Assembly: GCA_017395425.1 (NCBI GenBank)
Contig: JAFPUM010000055.1
Location: forward strand, 1 to 43,517
Direction: 5' to 3'
DNA: 43,517 nucleotides
DNA from: Clostridia bacterium
Lineage (GTDB): Bacteria > Bacillota > Clostridia > Oscillospirales > Acutalibacteraceae
Below the pieces are notes generated by a model. It worked only from the letters and a program-made list of their open reading frames with translations. It had not been told where the DNA came from and did not search any database. Position 1 is the first letter of the stretch. Each line of letters opens with the position of its first letter. Below, piece by piece: positions 4,109 through 43,517 of this stretch. The position numbers and the translations under genes were made by a program.

Positions 4109-4555
4109 AAATTGTCTGATGAAAGCGGCGATCAGGAAGACGGCGGCGGCAATCCAGTAGAAGAGATCATAATCCGATACACGCCCGGAGATTTCAATAA
4201 TGCCTCTGATCAGACAGCCGCTCATGAGGATTGCCACGCCGGAATGCCACAGCAGACAGGCTTGCCGCGAGAAGGGGAGCGCCTGACTTCGCAGCGCCAG
4301 CAGGTTGAAGGGCAGCACCCCCAACACCAGCGGCGCGAGGAACATCATCCGCATGAAATCGGAGGATTCGCCGAAACTGAACCGTTCGTAAATGAGGCAG
4401 AACACGATGCTGAAAAGCGTGACGCCAAGATAGGTCCGCGCGGTGCGGCGGTAAAGGCTTGCCGCGTTTATCGGTGCGGAATCCCTCACCGCGAGGGATT
4501 CTCCGATAGGATAAATCTTTTTGTTCTGATTAATAGCCGATGTAAACAATATCAC
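4091..4555 (-). CDS. Small multi-helix membrane protein, unknown
   Basis: The product has 154 residues with about four hydrophobic segments (LGVTLFSIVFCLIY; MMFLAPLVLGVLPFNLLAL; WHSGVAILMSGCLI; LFYWIAAAVFLIAAFI). No family is recognised. The GTG start at 4555 overlaps the end of the phosphodiester glycosidase gene by 26 bases, so the two are co-transcribed; an in-frame start further in is possible. The last residues (FTMRNA) and the stop lie inside a heptamer repeat island, so the original C-terminus has probably been replaced or trimmed by the repeat. Confidence 0.65.
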   Translation of the reverse strand: MILFTSAINQNKKIYPIGESLAVRDSAPINAASLYRRTARTYLGVTLFSIVFCLIYERFSFGESSDFMRMMFLAPLVLGVLPFNLLALRSQALPFSRQACLLWHSGVAILMSGCLIRGIIEISGRVSDYDLFYWIAAAVFLIAAFIRQFTMRNA

Positions 4556-5681
4556 TCACTGCCCTTTCTGAAATTCTGTTGCCGTTGGTGGTGGGGTTGT
4601 TGACCACCTGACCGTTGAAGACCATCGTGGAGGAACCGCCGCCGTCGAGATTATAAGCGGTTTTGCAGCCGTATTGCTGCATGAGCTGTGCCAGCTGATA
4701 GAGGGAAAGCCCTTCGCTTTCATTGGTTCTGCCGTCGGACACCACCAGAATATAGTGCAGGTCGTCGATGATGCCGATCGCCGTGCGGGGATTGTCCGCC
4801 ATCGCGCGTCCCACCTCGTCGTTTTCGGAAACAGTCACTTTTCCGTTCTGTACCAGTGCGGGACCGAACGACAGCAGGTTGTAGACGCCGCTGTCGAGAA
4901 GCTGCTGCGCGGTGACGTCCTTTTCATTGATGATGCCGAAGGAACCGTCGCGATAAATGACCAGATCCTCACTGTCGGAACTCTTGCGGACGGTGTCGCG
5001 GTAGAGAACGCCGTTTTTGATGACATAACCCTGACTGTTCGCGCCGTAGTAATCGCCGTTAATCGCGAGAATAGCGTTGTGATCGGACGCGATAGCGGAG
5101 GTCTTTTCGGTGACGTTGCGCCCGAAGGCGTTCTGCGCGAGGGCGGTCTTGAGATACGCCGCGGAGGACAATTGCACGTCCGCGATGTAGACCGTCGTAT
5201 CATTCGACCTCACGGTATTGATCTGAACGGAAATTTTTCCGTCCGAGTAGGAGGTATCGGTCAGTGTTTTCTGAATGGTTTCATTACTTTGGGCATTGTC
5301 GTTGGTTTGTGTGTTATCGCTGCTCTGCGTTTTGCCTTTTGAACTGTCCGAACTGCCGGAACTGTCAGAAGAGGAACTGCCATTCCGGCTGCCCTTGCTT
5401 TTTTTGCCGCCGCTGGGACGTGTGCGGCGGGAAGATCGCCCGCTGCCGTCGGCACTGTCGGTTCCGGGTTTGTGCCTTTCCATACGGGAATGCTCCTGGT
5501 TATTCTCACCGTTGTCGATGCGTTCGAGCGGTGACTGCTCGGATGTTTCCGCTGTCTCCGAAACGACGGTCTGCACCGACGGAATCAGAAAGGTTTTGAG
5601 CAGTACATACGCGTTGAGCGAAGTCAGCGTGACGGCAAATACCGTCGCGTAAACAAAAGGTTTTTTGAAGAAATCTTTCAT
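4530..5681 (-). CDS. Membrane-anchored phosphodiester glycosidase (NAGPA domain)
   Basis: The product has about 383 residues. An N-terminal membrane anchor (FVYATVFAVTLTSLNAYVLL) is followed by a long Ser/Asp/Asn/Lys-rich linker (about 45-145), then a NAGPA/YoqZ-type domain. Seen motifs are AILAINGDYYG, PRTAIGIIDD and the family signature NLDGGGSSTMVFNG near the C-terminus. The family cleaves GlcNAc-1-phosphodiester or related exopolysaccharide linkages; the substrate here is unknown and the domain is predicted outside the cell. An upstream in-frame ATG exists at 5696, but GGTGATC, complementary to the 16S rRNA end, lies just before the ATG at 5681, which is therefore preferred. Confidence 0.88.
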   Translation of the reverse strand: MKDFFKKPFVYATVFAVTLTSLNAYVLLKTFLIPSVQTVVSETAETSEQSPLERIDNGENNQEHSRMERHKPGTDSADGSGRSSRRTRPSGGKKSKGSRNGSSSSDSSGSSDSSKGKTQSSDNTQTNDNAQSNETIQKTLTDTSYSDGKISVQINTVRSNDTTVYIADVQLSSAAYLKTALAQNAFGRNVTEKTSAIASDHNAILAINGDYYGANSQGYVIKNGVLYRDTVRKSSDSEDLVIYRDGSFGIINEKDVTAQQLLDSGVYNLLSFGPALVQNGKVTVSENDEVGRAMADNPRTAIGIIDDLHYILVVSDGRTNESEGLSLYQLAQLMQQYGCKTAYNLDGGGSSTMVFNGQVVNNPTTNGNRISERAVSDIVYIGY

Positions 5682-7337: not shown

Positions 7338-8621
7338 ATGGGTATGACAATGACGCAAAAAATTCTCGCGGCGCATGCGGGGCTTGACAGCGTGGTGGCC
7401 GGACAGCTGATCGAGGCGAAGCTGGATCTGGTACTGGGCAATGATATCACCTCGCCGGTCGCGATCAATGAACTGGAAAAAGCCGGTGTTGACAAGATAT
7501 TTGACAGGGAAAGAATCGCCTTGGTGATGGATCATTTTACCCCCAACAAAGACATCAAGGCGGCACAGCAGGTCGCTAAGGTGCGTGCGTTTGCCAGGCA
7601 GTACGATGTGCTGAACTATTTCGACGTGGGGCGCATGGGCATTGAACACGCCCTTCTGCCCGAACAAGGACTGGTGGGACCCGGCGACTGTGTGATCGGC
7701 GCGGACAGCCACACCTGCACCTACGGCGCGCTCGGCGCCTTCTCGACCGGTGTCGGTTCCACCGATATGGCGGCGGGCATGGCAACCGGCAAGACGTGGT
7801 TCAAGGTGCCTTCCGCCATTCGCTTTGTTCTCACGGGTCAGCCGCAGGGCTGGGTCACGGGCAAGGACGTGATACTGCACATCATCGGCATGATCGGTGT
7901 GGACGGCGCGCGTTATAAGTCGATGGAATTTACCGGCGACGGCGTGAAGCATCTGTCGATGGATTCCCGTCTGTGCATTGCAAACATGGCAATTGAAGCG
8001 GGTGCCAAGAACGGTATCTTCCCGGTGGACGAAATCACCGAGGAATACATCAAAGACCGTTTTCAGCGCACGCCGGTGGTCTATGCCGCCGACGAGGACG
8101 CGGAATACGATGAAACCTATACCATTGATCTCAGTGCGCTCCGTCCGACGGTTGCCTTCCCGCATCTGCCCGAAAACACCCGCACAGTGGACGAGATCGG
8201 CGCGACCGAAGTCAAGATTGACCAGAGCGTGATCGGCAGCTGCACCAACGGTCGCATCGAAGACCTGCGTGCCGCCGCCGCGATTCTCAAGGGACGCAAA
8301 GTCGCCGAGAATGTGCGCTGCATCATCTTCCCCGGCACCCAGTCCATCTATCTGCAGGCGCTGCGGGAAGGACTGCTCGAAATCTTTGTGGAGGCGGGCG
8401 CGGTGGTATCCACCTCAACCTGCGGACCCTGTCTGGGCGGTCACATGGGCATTCTCGCCGAGAATGAAAAGGCAGTCAGCACCACCAACCGCAACTTCAT
8501 CGGACGCATGGGACACATCACCAGCGAAATCTACCTTGCCAGCCCCGCCGTCGCCGCTGCCAGCGCCGTAACCGGCTACATCACGGACCCGGGAACGATT
8601 GGCGCTCCCTGCGGTCGCTAA
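7338..8621 (+). CDS. leuC: 3-isopropylmalate dehydratase large subunit
   Basis: The product has 427 residues and is the catalytic [4Fe-4S] subunit that isomerises 2- to 3-isopropylmalate in leucine synthesis. Aconitase-family motifs are clear: [27 protein letters not shown] and [12 protein letters not shown], whose cysteines ligate the cluster. The length fits the shorter HacA/archaeal-type LeuC. AAGGAGG at 7321-7327 sets the ATG at 7338; a second ATG two codons later is also possible. The last residues (TIGAPCGR) and the stop are encoded by one copy of a 24-bp direct repeat, so the C-terminus has been rewritten by repeat insertion. leuD follows 166 bases downstream; leuA and leuB are not in the window. 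Confidence 0.96.
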
Positions 8622-35368: not shown

Positions 35369-35382
35369 AGATTCAGTGATAA

Positions 35383-35558
35383 CGAAAGATAGAGGCGCGG
35401 CATCAGATGAGTAACGGATACCGAGGCAGCCATTGCCGTCGGAGGCGTCCGGGAAAGGCTCTGCCGCCGAAGGATTCGCCGGAGTATGGCGCCGCGAATG
35501 CCTGGGGGTGCGGTCAACAGCCGTATCACTGTCATCATGCGTGATGGAGTGCTATCGT
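35383..35558 (+). ncRNA. Lysine riboswitch (L box)
   Basis: The leader between promoter and asd is about 330 bases and has no gene. It carries the conserved L-box blocks in order: AAAGATAGAGGCGCGG, then GATGAGTAA, GGGAAAGG, GCCGCCGAAGG, and GTGCGGTCAACAGCC, then ATCACTGTCATCATGCGTGAT. The outer helix closes with GATAG (35388-35392) and CTATC (35552-35556). It lies in front of aspartate-semialdehyde dehydrogenase, a lysine-pathway gene. Lysine binding should favour the terminator at 35640. Confidence 0.93.
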
Positions 35559-35639
35559 AACTTCTTCCTATGGATTCTGCCGGATGTTGCTTTTTGTGAG
35601 CAGGAGCAGGCGGCATTTCATAATGACAGCGCATAGATG

Positions 35640-41943: not shown

Positions 41944-42279
41944 ATGCAGGACGATTTTCACGATTACAGCCGTTTTATCCGGCGTTCTTTGAAGCAGGCG
42001 CAATGTCTGTATGATCAGAGCGTCATGCAGGCTCAGGCAGATGATCAGGACGATGTAATGTCAACGGAATATCACAAACCGTGTGACTGTTGTCAGGGTG
42101 ATACAGATTCCGCGGATAACCGCTGCGGTAGTCATACTTCTGAATCACTGCCCGTGATGGTGTTTATTACCTGTCAGACTTTCGGCAAACAGTATAACGA
42201 AGCAGAAGCGTTGCAGCGCGGCACGCTGTTTCCCGCGCTTGACAAACCGTTTTTAGGAAGAGGGTGTCATTGCAGATGA
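41944..42279 (+). CDS. cotJA: Spore-coat-associated protein CotJA
   Basis: The product has 111 residues; AAAGGAG precedes the ATG. The C-terminal 45 residues carry the CotJA pattern (VMVFITCQTFGKQYNEAEAL, then GTLFPALDKPF). The N-terminal 65 residues are a polar, Cys-containing extension (CDCCQGD) not usual in the family. It starts the cotJABC operon. CotJ proteins are laid down in the inner spore coat, so the host makes endospores. Confidence 0.88.
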   Translation: MQDDFHDYSRFIRRSLKQAQCLYDQSVMQAQADDQDDVMSTEYHKPCDCCQGDTDSADNRCGSHTSESLPVMVFITCQTFGKQYNEAEALQRGTLFPALDKPFLGRGCHCR

Positions 42280-42590
42280 ATCAGATGGACAAAAGACAGA
42301 AATTGTTGGCACAGCTTTCTGCGTGTCAATTTGCCCAATATGAATTGATGCTTTTTTTGGATACGCACCCTGACTGTACAGCGGCGATGAAGGTTCTTCA
42401 ACTTCACCGCGCCAATGCTCAAAAGCTCCGGGAGCAGTATGAATGCCAATTCGGTCCGCTCAGCAATCCCAAGGGGAATGGGCAGCACTGGAATTGGATT
42501 GATGATCCGTGGCCGTGGGATTATACCGGCGCGGGAGGTTGCTTTACACCGTCGATGGGCGCCAGAAACAAAAAAGGAGCGTGCAGATAA
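42276..42590 (+). CDS. cotJB: Spore coat protein CotJB
   Basis: The product has 104 residues from the ATG at 42276, which overlaps the cotJA stop (ATGA) and follows AGGAAGAGGG. The family hallmarks are FAQYELMLFLDTHPDC, a helix to QYECQFGPL, and WNWIDDPWPWDY. CotJB is needed for CotJA and CotJC assembly in Bacillus. Confidence 0.93.
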   Translation: MNQMDKRQKLLAQLSACQFAQYELMLFLDTHPDCTAAMKVLQLHRANAQKLREQYECQFGPLSNPKGNGQHWNWIDDPWPWDYTGAGGCFTPSMGARNKKGACR

Positions 42591-42706
42591 TGTGGAGCTA
42601 TGAGAAAAAATTACAATACCCCGTCAATATCAAAAATCCCAACCCAAAACTTGCTCAGATGATTATCAGTCAATACGGAGGTGCATACAACAAAAGATAT
42701 GGTTAA
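42590..42706 (+). pseudogene. cotJC: CotJC (manganese catalase-like), cut off after about 31 residues
   Basis: The ATG overlaps the cotJB stop and AAAAAGGAG precedes it. Residues 1-31 are excellent CotJC (MWSYEKKLQYPVNIKNPNPK, then LAQMIISQYGG). After QYGG the normal sequence (usually continuing into RYLxQR) is lost; seven other codons and a stop follow. The catalytic ferritin-like core is absent. The break lies at about 42683 and phage lysis genes begin at 42746, so a prophage end (attachment site) is likely at the break. If it excises in sporulating cells, an intact gene could be restored. Confidence 0.85.
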
Positions 42707-42718
42707 ACACTGGCAACC

Positions 42719-42765
42719 CCGGCTCATGCAAGGATTCTTCCATCCTCACATGAGCCGGTTTTTTA
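42719..42765 (+). terminator. Terminator at the prophage edge
   Basis: CCGGCTCATG (42719-42728) and CATGAGCCGG (42749-42758) with an inner AGGAT/ATCCT stem, followed by six T. It would stop rightward cotJ transcripts before they run antisense through the lysis genes. It overlaps the 3' end of the holin gene. Confidence 0.85.
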
Positions 42766-43174
42766 AATCTGTGGAGTTGTCATCGCCCTTGATCTGTTCG
42801 AGGGCTTTGAGGAGCTTGTCGGGAATGGGGATGCCGCACTTCGCACAGTTTTCGAGGATAGAGATACCCTCGTTGGCGATCAACACGCCTACAACGATGT
42901 TCTGCAATACGCCGTTCGCACCGGTTGCAACGTCCACGCAGTGTGCCACCGCGACGACGAAGAAATACATGACCTTTTTGAGAATGCCGATGAATCCGAT
43001 ATGCGAGCTAAGCTGGAGGTTAATGTATGCACCAATCACACCGCTGACGTAATCAATCACAACGAATGCCAGCAGCGTCATGAGCCAAATATCGGGCTTT
43101 CCGAACAGGAACGTGCAGATGCTCGCCATTCCTGCAATGAATATGCGGGCAAATCTGCCCCAGTCAATAGCCAT
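42746..43174 (-). CDS. Phage holin
   Basis: The product has 142 residues with about three or four helices (IFIAGMASICTFLFG; IWLMTLLAFVVIDYVSGVIGAY; ILKKVMYFFVVAVAHCVDV; VVGVLIANEGISILENCA). The VIDYVSG and NEGISILENCAKCGIPIP parts are the signature of the TcdE/Phage_holin_4 family. It forms membrane lesions that release or activate the endolysin. It follows the endolysin gene by one base and is transcribed toward cotJC. Confidence 0.93.
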   Translation of the reverse strand: MAIDWGRFARIFIAGMASICTFLFGKPDIWLMTLLAFVVIDYVSGVIGAYINLQLSSHIGFIGILKKVMYFFVVAVAHCVDVATGANGVLQNIVVGVLIANEGISILENCAKCGIPIPDKLLKALEQIKGDDNSTDLKNRLM

Positions 43175-43175
43175 A

Positions 43176-43517
43176 TCATACCACCTCCCGTCTGAGCATC
43201 AGGCGGGTCTTTTCGCCGACAATGCCGTCGGGAGTAAGACCGTGGGATTTCTGGAAGGCGATGACGGCGGCTTTCGTGACAGCGCCGAATTTGCCATCAA
43301 TGCTGATTTTTGCACCGCACTTCTTCAAGTGCCACTGAATCCACGCGGCACCTTTGTCACCGAATTTCCGGTTTTCGGACGGTTCGGCATAGGGACATTC
43401 CGAGAATGACTTGCGGACGTTGCCGCCGGAATCCTTCCAGCAGACGCGATTTTTGCGAGTGTCGATGTGTACGAATTTTTTCTGTTCGTACCAGCCGATA
43501 CCGCCGCAATCAAGCGT
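43176..43517 (-). CDS. Phage endolysin, C-terminal part (M15-type peptidase plus peptidoglycan-binding domain)
   Basis: The frame is open to the right edge; the last 113 residues are seen. The first 30 show GIGWYEQKKFVHIDTR, the zinc-ligand end of M15-type D-Ala-D-Ala or L-Ala-D-Glu peptidases (His and Asp). A peptidoglycan-binding type 1 domain follows: GDKGAAWIQWHLKKCG, then IDGKFGAVTKAAVIAFQ and GLTPDGIVGEKTRLML. It cuts host peptidoglycan at lysis. The stop is at 43176-43178, one base before the holin start. Confidence 0.9.
   Translation of the reverse strand, partial: TLDCGGIGWYEQKKFVHIDTRKNRVCWKDSGGNVRKSFSECPYAEPSENRKFGDKGAAWIQWHLKKCGAKISIDGKFGAVTKAAVIAFQKSHGLTPDGIVGEKTRLMLRREVV

Follow-up and report, generated by a model that had tools for sequence, protein, structure and literature searches.

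A prophage end inside the spore-coat gene cotJC, and recurrent large serine recombinase insertions in the same gene as candidates for excision during sporulation

Introduction

The sporulation-controlled excisions to be found in the literature, as far as its accessible text extends, are few (sigK, spsM, spoVFB, gerE and yabG). In Clostridioides difficile, the available text on the skin element of sigK describes a constitutive large serine recombinase (LSR) and a 72-aa directionality factor under the control of sigmaE and SpoIIID, which limits excision to the mother cell (PMC5025042). In Bacillus subtilis, the prophage SPbeta is excised from spsM by the SprA recombinase in the mother cell only, with sprA and sprB sufficient during sporulation and the accessory protein SprB conferring the timing, according to the accessible part of the report (PMC4191935). 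Further sporulation genes cut by mobile elements are described, again in partly available texts, as vfbin (spoVFB), gin (gerE) and yin (yabG) (PMC10747680, PMC5595907). Phage phi027 of C. difficile has its attachment site near cotG, a homologue of cotJC, although the accessible passages place cotG downstream of attR and do not describe it as cut (PMC11222575, PMC12122855).

The window (the whole stretch of DNA analysed here, 43,517 nucleotides) is the entire contig C50 of the 62-contig assembly G000 (completeness 98.67%), and it ends in a cotJC gene broken by phage DNA. The cotJ genes form a mother-cell operon. We consider it likely that the window holds one end of a prophage at a site in cotJC (S1), which is excised by its own LSR in the mother cell as skin is for sigK. 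A temperate tailed phage would have integrated through its LSR at S1 of cotJC, with which the spore-coat operon cotJABC ends, so that the window would represent attL, with the remaining prophage, the LSR next to attR (as in the related genome G017) and cotJC from codon 31 onwards lying past the contig end. The gene would remain cut in the forespore as well as in vegetative cells, and during sporulation the LSR and an excision helper would remove the insert from the mother-cell chromosome and join the halves in frame; the restored gene would then allow CotJC, a Mn-catalase-like coat protein, to be made, while the spore would retain the prophage.

Such a system would share with skin (CD1231 LSR and CD1234 directionality factor) an LSR insert in a mother-cell gene and restoration in frame. 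It would differ in its target (cotJC rather than sigK), in having four sites, with as many as three inserts in a single gene, and in that the directionality factor of skin is known whereas here a candidate helper gene and a predicted excision stand in its place. With SPbeta it would share a complete temperate phage within a spore-envelope gene and a site-specific recombinase, and the sufficiency of sprA and sprB is comparable to the reduced cotJC inserts of 2.3–4 kb; the gene, the host class and the LSR are other ones, and SPbeta uses a single site. The parallel to skin and SPbeta, drawn in an earlier reading made from the window's letters (the sequence-only reading), is supported. The kind of system is known, and what is new is the cotJC target, the four sites and the stacked inserts; within the open-access literature (preprints and most subscription papers being outside this scope) no description of an element-interrupted cotJC was recognised. 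Sequence comparison gives good support to integration at a dedicated attB and to the LSR clade, as well as to the missing half of cotJC, its conservation and the in-frame join in relatives; the timing in the mother cell, the helper and what becomes of CotJC are inferred.

Results and discussion

The cotJ operon and the phage end in the window

The features at the right-hand end of the window are as follows.

41944..42279, plus strand: cotJA, complete (PF11007, E 1.3e-12; ORF listing)
42276..42590, plus strand: cotJB, complete (PF12652, E 2.1e-25 on 42279-42587; start read from sequence)
42590..42681, plus strand: cotJC 5' piece, codons 1-31, ending in attL (PF05067 model positions 1-32 at 42590-42685)
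42674..42681, plus strand: attachment core TACGGAGG of site S1, codons Y29 G30 G31 (same core in sister attL/attR)
42682..42702, plus strand: phage-side half of attL, TGCATACAACAAAAGATATGG (its arm AAAAGATAT is similar to right arms of attP)
42719..42764, no strand assigned: terminator-like hairpin CCGGCTCATG...CATGAGCCGG TTTTTT between the att site and the holin (read from sequence, without a tool score)
42746..43174, minus strand: phage holin, 142 aa (PF05105, E 4e-38; phrog_199, E 1.7e-29)
43176..43517, minus strand: endolysin, C-terminal part of 113 residues only (PG_binding_1), running off the contig (PF01471, E 4.8e-16; phrog_2649, E 1.1e-14)

Both cotJA and cotJB are complete by their Pfam domains, as had been read from the sequence, and the cotJB ATG overlaps the cotJA stop. 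Residues 1-31 of CotJC in the window are identical to those of the complete cotJC of a sister species (G015, L004), which bears out the earlier statement that the gene is correct for 31 residues and then broken. DNA similarity to the complete copies L004, L039, L040 and L050 stops at 42681, the final base of the core TACGGAGG, and to the complete copy L005 at 42688; an attachment core had been predicted at 42655-42685, and the core now placed at 42674-42681 falls within that interval. Similar cores are found in the attP of viral contigs. The insertion point lies within the cotJC coding sequence (codons 29-31), as in sporulation gene-intervening elements of the skin and SPbeta type.

The phage genes in the window are the holin and the partial endolysin only, the contig ending 836 bases past the cotJC junction. 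The holin's 3' end is directed at the cotJC break and lies 64 bases away, as the sequence-only reading had it, but the endolysin that it placed alongside is present as the C-terminal part only, with the catalytic part falling outside the window. A Mn-catalase profile search of the 62 contigs of G000 found no 3' half of cotJC, the sole PF05067 match being the window's 5' piece. The S1 LSR search of G000 gave no close match and only distant LSRs on contigs C38 and C25; the matches listed by the S2 and S3 LSR scans include none in this assembly, and the S4 scan matched the C25 LSR, which has no adjoining cotJC piece. A SpoIVA gene was found in G000, which makes a sporulation programme likely.

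Elsewhere in the same genome, a stretch of contig C27 (~8029-8144, L003) matches the lysis genes of the window at 74% identity across 744 bases and is probably a second prophage. The window also holds a lysine riboswitch at 35382-35562 (RF00168, 82.8 bits).

The same junction in relatives

Among 18 genomes of the same genus, 16 had a cotJC match, which was full length in only two (G015, G002). The remaining pieces fell into few classes: codons 1-32 with the same end point in nine genomes (the window included), approximately codons 28-65 in six, codons 1-65 in three, and from approximately codon 59 onward in six. The window's host-to-phage junction itself was found again in G017 (L027, 88% over 42501-42956) and in G008 (L025, 71% over 42504-43075), and in both genomes another contig carries an LSR with the next cotJC piece directly after it (L116 and L115, respectively). 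The attL (L027) and attR (L116/L020) of G017 together hold both inverted arms of an attP.

An assembly chimera would be a conceivable origin of such a junction, the window being a draft contig with the break 836 bases from its end. We give this almost no credence: the junction is common to two separate sister assemblies (G017, G008), so that the window is no chimera, and the same site is interrupted in named genomes, some of them titled as strains rather than metagenome-assembled genomes.

In G016, which belongs to the same genus, the S1 element comprises head (major head), connector, tail, tape-measure, endolysin and holin genes, with an LSR beside the other cotJC piece, and its orientation is opposite to the window's; among S1 inserts, 37 loci show one orientation and 33 the other. 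Tailed phages use S1, the site of the window, and their free attP is found in viral contigs. What the sequence-only reading expected beyond the contig end is found in relatives: the remainder of cotJC is present and undecayed there (it is missing from the G000 assembly), an LSR lies at the far end in the window-type sisters G017 and G008, and phage genes other than the lysis pair are carried by the G016 element. Its observation of a prophage end inside cotJC is confirmed and its interpretation partly supported; it had caught a single case of a multi-site hotspot.

Four interruption sites across the family

In a sample of 250 family genomes (completeness at least 80%), 196 had a Mn-catalase/cotJC match. 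Classification by hand from the profile-search listings (G018 left out) gave full-length cotJC in 87 of the 250 genomes and pieces ending at one, two or three of four sites in 99, together with two genomes with unassignable pieces and seven with distant or weak matches only; among the 87, further matches were inspected only in G104. The interruption of yabG by yin differs in this respect, the accessible part of the yabG paper calling its insert unique, whereas cotJC pieces occur in 99 of 250 genomes of one family. The sites were S1 (codons 30-31; 45 genomes), S2 (codons 61-63; 42), S3 (codons 134-137; 15) and S4 (codons 173-175; 25), and 22 genomes had multiple breaks (two sites in 16 and three in 6), although some piece ends may be contig edges, so that individual counts may be inexact. 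Most of the surveyed assemblies are fragmented, and many pieces lie on separate contigs, where piece order could be checked only in part. Both halves of cotJC nevertheless flank an insert in relatives that include the single-contig genomes G239, G153, G064, G173 and G024; on the single contig of G239, pieces 1-33, 28-64 and 59-198 follow one another on the same strand in gene order, at distances of 14.6 and 31.4 kb.

In two Ruminococcus genomes (L136, L160, ~4460-4600), a second LSR abuts the first cotJC codons in addition to the S1 LSR, possibly marking a fifth site, S0.

Three cases fit simple excision poorly and were counted against the preferred reading. In G104 (C2 308291-314807, L092), cotJC is complete and its codons 58-196 recur ~5.5 kb downstream (94% identity across 477 bases), an ORF of 1650 aa separating the two copies. 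In G123 (C4 139706 and 168771, L078/L079), the cotJC 3' end is doubled at a distance of ~29 kb, as though an S4 element had come with a gene end of its own. In G112 (C23 111760-132700, L067/L068), housekeeping genes (guanylate kinase, priA, fmt, rsmB and rlmN) lie between the S2-S3 piece and the S3-end piece, and excision would strip the mother cell of essential genes; this interval is either a rearrangement around the att site or a misassembly.

Content of the inserts

Resolved inserts at S1-S4 range from 2.3 kb to ~31 kb, and distances between cotJC pieces reach ~60 kb (G130) and 99 kb (G228). Phage genes were identified by PHROG matches in inserts of G016, G128 and G217. Other inserts resemble phage remnants, the S1 insert of G112 retaining LSR, endolysin and holin, and G203 carrying similar genes. 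No phage gene was seen by eye (without a PHROGs scan) in inserts of G239 (hydantoinase and ABC-transporter genes), G213/G130 (superoxide dismutase, SOD) and G123 (Amidase_6). Remnants of 2-4 kb and complete phages share the same site, which makes a route of prophage domestication testable.

The 3.2 kb insert of G213/G130 consists of a Fe/Mn superoxide dismutase gene, small genes and the LSR; a Fe/Mn superoxide dismutase gene (L083 1504-2133 in G213, also in G130) is here carried by an insert that cuts a Mn-catalase-like coat gene.

In-frame joining, selection and the age of the inserts

Joining the flanks kept the CotJC frame in all 24 junction pairs for which both sides were available, 19 by an automatic rule of the longest shared core and five only with the crossover placed by hand at the site codon (G112 S2 and S3, G261, G035 S4 and G050). 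Internal stops were flagged in 7 of 168 cotJC pieces (a genome may count twice): in six the stop falls past the core, within alignment overhang, and in one it is real (L277). This check left out the 10 residues that follow a broken start and the 8 that precede a broken end, and the profile-search listings show stops in some cotJC pieces that were not gone through singly. Across 36 trimmed cotJC pairs with dS of 0.05-1.6 (other pairs dropped; some of the 36 include the uninterrupted G015 and G002), dN/dS was 0.00-0.10. The window's piece and that of G017 have silent differences only (dN 0, dS 0.44 over 30 codons).

For two pairs of species, the insert could be dated against the gene that it cuts. 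For G213/G130, dS was 0.589 for the LSR, 0.47 for the SOD gene and 0.585 for cotJC (cotJC dN/dS 0.036), and for G064/G173 it was 0.348 for the LSR and 0.325 for cotJC (cotJC dN/dS 0.013); dS of neighbouring host genes (~0.07-0.39) is below that of insert and cotJC, which makes the dating rough. Judged from these values, the insert appears to be about as old as the species split in both pairs, and cotJC appears to have been under purifying selection while cut.

These data bear on plain insertional inactivation, according to which cotJC would be dispensable and the window's piece a relic. Loss of CotJC-like proteins without a strong spore-coat phenotype in C. difficile or B. subtilis, as far as the available text of two reports goes (PMC11222575, PMC12122855), would agree with such a view. 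We nonetheless find it improbable, with only a small share of our belief: the cotJC pieces are nearly stop-free and strongly conserved, those on single contigs keep order and frame across up to three inserts, and G000 has no second PF05067 protein to stand in. A conserved but cut cotJC is unlike what is expected of a gene that is never restored, and decay of cotJC to a relic was rejected in view of the few stops, the low dN/dS and the age of the inserts.

Large serine recombinases and the free phage form

An LSR was found at most cotJC breaks examined, each site having its own main LSR clade. Resolvase, Recombinase and zinc ribbon domains were confirmed in one representative each for S1, two S2 groups, S3 and S4, and 26 of 39 motif-picked candidate ORFs in the fetched loci (some of the 39 not being LSRs) end 3-71 bases from a cotJC piece. 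When an alignment of S1 LSRs was searched against named genomes, 572 relatives were obtained, and 74 of the best 80 had a cotJC piece within the fetched DNA (the other six were misses), with the break nearly always at S1 and at the 3' end of the LSR. The 74 loci include Ruminococcus flavefaciens, Agathobaculum, Butyricicoccus, Faecalispora jeddahensis, Marasmitruncus massiliensis and Anaeromassilibacillus senegalensis (order unsettled for 18 of the 74). Strains that carry an S1 insert include Anaeromassilibacillus senegalensis mt9, in which it measures 3.2 kb, and Faecalispora jeddahensis JCD, besides isolates of Agathobaculum and Butyricicoccus. Scans with the S2, S3 and S4 LSRs (30 loci each, flanks up to 1.5 kb) found a cotJC piece at 8 of the first 13 loci and 1 of the other 17 for S2, at all of the first 10 and none of the other 20 for S3, and at 11 of the first 15 and none of the other 15 for S4.

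On a FastTree tree of 216 LSRs, which some genomes enter via two routes, the labels S0-S4 or none change 22 times, compared with at least 95 in 200 shuffles. Within the four main clades, 89 of 104, 23 of 28, 11 of 15 and 15 of 21 LSRs carry the site (support 77, 100, 100 and 10, respectively), and a second S2-using LSR group (G130, G228) is nested in the clade with an S1 majority.

Free phage forms were sought in IMG/VR, where 19 of the best 80 LSR loci adjoin cotJC; 50 further loci without cotJC and with at least 70 bases after the LSR served for the attP test. A stem of at least 9 bp directly after the LSR stop was present in 41 of these 50 loci but in only 4 of the 19 with cotJC (9 of 69 stretches in the shuffled control), and a core-like motif (GGNGG, its complement, or GGNCC) stood in the loop in 35 of 50 versus none of 19. 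By its sequence, a stem with a core-like loop after the LSR has the layout expected of an unrecombined attP.

Possible control of excision

A small gene family divergent from the LSR was found in 19 of 106 LSR regions (G130 and G213 counted twice) and provides a candidate directionality factor. In some LSR regions the motif CATAGGACAA, which we take to resemble a SpoIIID box, stands 35-47 bp upstream of this small gene. It occurs six times in 589 kb of window and element sequence, compared with 0.8 times in mononucleotide shuffles, and all six precede a small gene beside an LSR (four S1, one S2 and one S4). Counted by recombinase, it lies within 600 bases upstream in 11 of 89 S1 LSRs (at most nine S1 genomes, G130 and G213 having been entered twice), 1 of 26 S2, 1 of 15 S4 (other strand), none of 11 S3 and none of 72 other LSRs; the motif search had no match in the window. 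A looser form, CATARGACA, was not enriched over the 589 kb (9 versus 10.4 shuffled). In four whole genomes an extended form of CATAGGACAA had nine matches versus 17 for a reversed-pattern control: five at small genes of cotJC-site LSRs, two at those of non-cotJC LSRs and two at neither, none being recognised as a host sporulation gene. Its occurrence at LSRs outside cotJC too suggests that the motif belongs to LSR helper genes generally, and CATAGGACAA is a lead to a link with mother-cell control.

The general SpoIIID consensus is WWRRACARNY, and in this form it was not enriched upstream of the LSRs. Regular expressions for sigmaE-type motifs (7 of 106 cotJC versus 3 of 68 other LSRs) and sigmaK-type motifs (0 of 106 versus 2 of 68) likewise gave no separation upstream of the LSRs.

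A phage that excises only on induction, with cotJC restored as a by-product in few cells under no sporulation programme and selection acting in uninfected lineages with a fast turnover of phages, would be in keeping with these motif results, since with sigma-type and SpoIIID-type motifs unenriched no regulatory link is proven, and also with the free phage forms and the uninterrupted cotJC of 87 of the 250 family genomes. We regard this as unlikely, though as the most serious competitor to excision in the mother cell. Cut genomes (99) outnumber uninterrupted ones (87), and cotJC in G213/G130 and G064/G173 has kept its low dN/dS with inserts approximately as old as the species split. Moreover, the inserts without a phage gene by eye (2.3-31 kb; SOD, amidase and ABC genes) could not use lytic induction. 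Excision by the element's own LSR in the mother cell remains our preferred reading.

Interruption sites and the metal ligands

The ligands of the Lactobacillus plantarum Mn catalase, once aligned, presumably map to E35, E65, H68, E136 and H169 of CotJC. Each of the four cores lies at most 5 codons from a ligand, one per ligand group, an arrangement matched by 0.00017 of random draws when the 5-codon limit and the site centres are set, as they were here, after seeing the data. With the active site fixed, the LSRs would be targeting DNA that is unable to drift.

The position of the breaks also speaks to separate translation of the cotJC pieces and their assembly in trans. Some 3' pieces do lie in longer open frames, as in G239 (727 aa), where the LSR frame runs into cotJC, but the S1 piece has only 31 residues and the S1-S2 piece ~33, and the breaks presumably part the metal ligands, so that we hold assembly in trans to be very improbable. 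The frame in question is that of the S2 LSR in G239 (L065 5574-7625), which continues without a stop into the cotJC 3' piece to give an ORF of 683 aa.

With excision in the mother cell as the preferred reading for the window, a broader proposal, to which we give even chances, is that in this family cotJC is spliced at the DNA level: LSR lineages would independently have taken one each of four attB sites at the metal-ligand motifs of the catalase active site (~E35, E65/H68, E136 and H169), the two or three inserts found in many species, whether phage or fully domesticated, would all have to leave the mother-cell chromosome before the gene could be read, and small LSR-linked helper genes sharing the promoter motif CATAGGACAA would couple the timing to mother-cell development. 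If this is true, cotJC would play for spore-former serine integrases the part that tRNA genes play for tyrosine integrases. Apparently, cotJC is cut in approximately half of the classed genomes (99 of 186), at four sites and by four main LSR clades, cultured gut strains included. The choice by phages of mother-cell genes (a line without descendants, in which excision is free of cost to the phage) and the coordination of several excisions become testable, and the cotJC system supplies sets of LSRs with known attB and attP. A cut cotJC would also account for the gene being annotated as truncated in genomes of this kind.

Other genes may be cut likewise. In G153, two other LSRs (L366 8406-10050 and L367 9997-11731) have a divergent small gene preceded by TAGGACAA, and one of the two adjoins a FeoB-like fragment, as read from the sequence.
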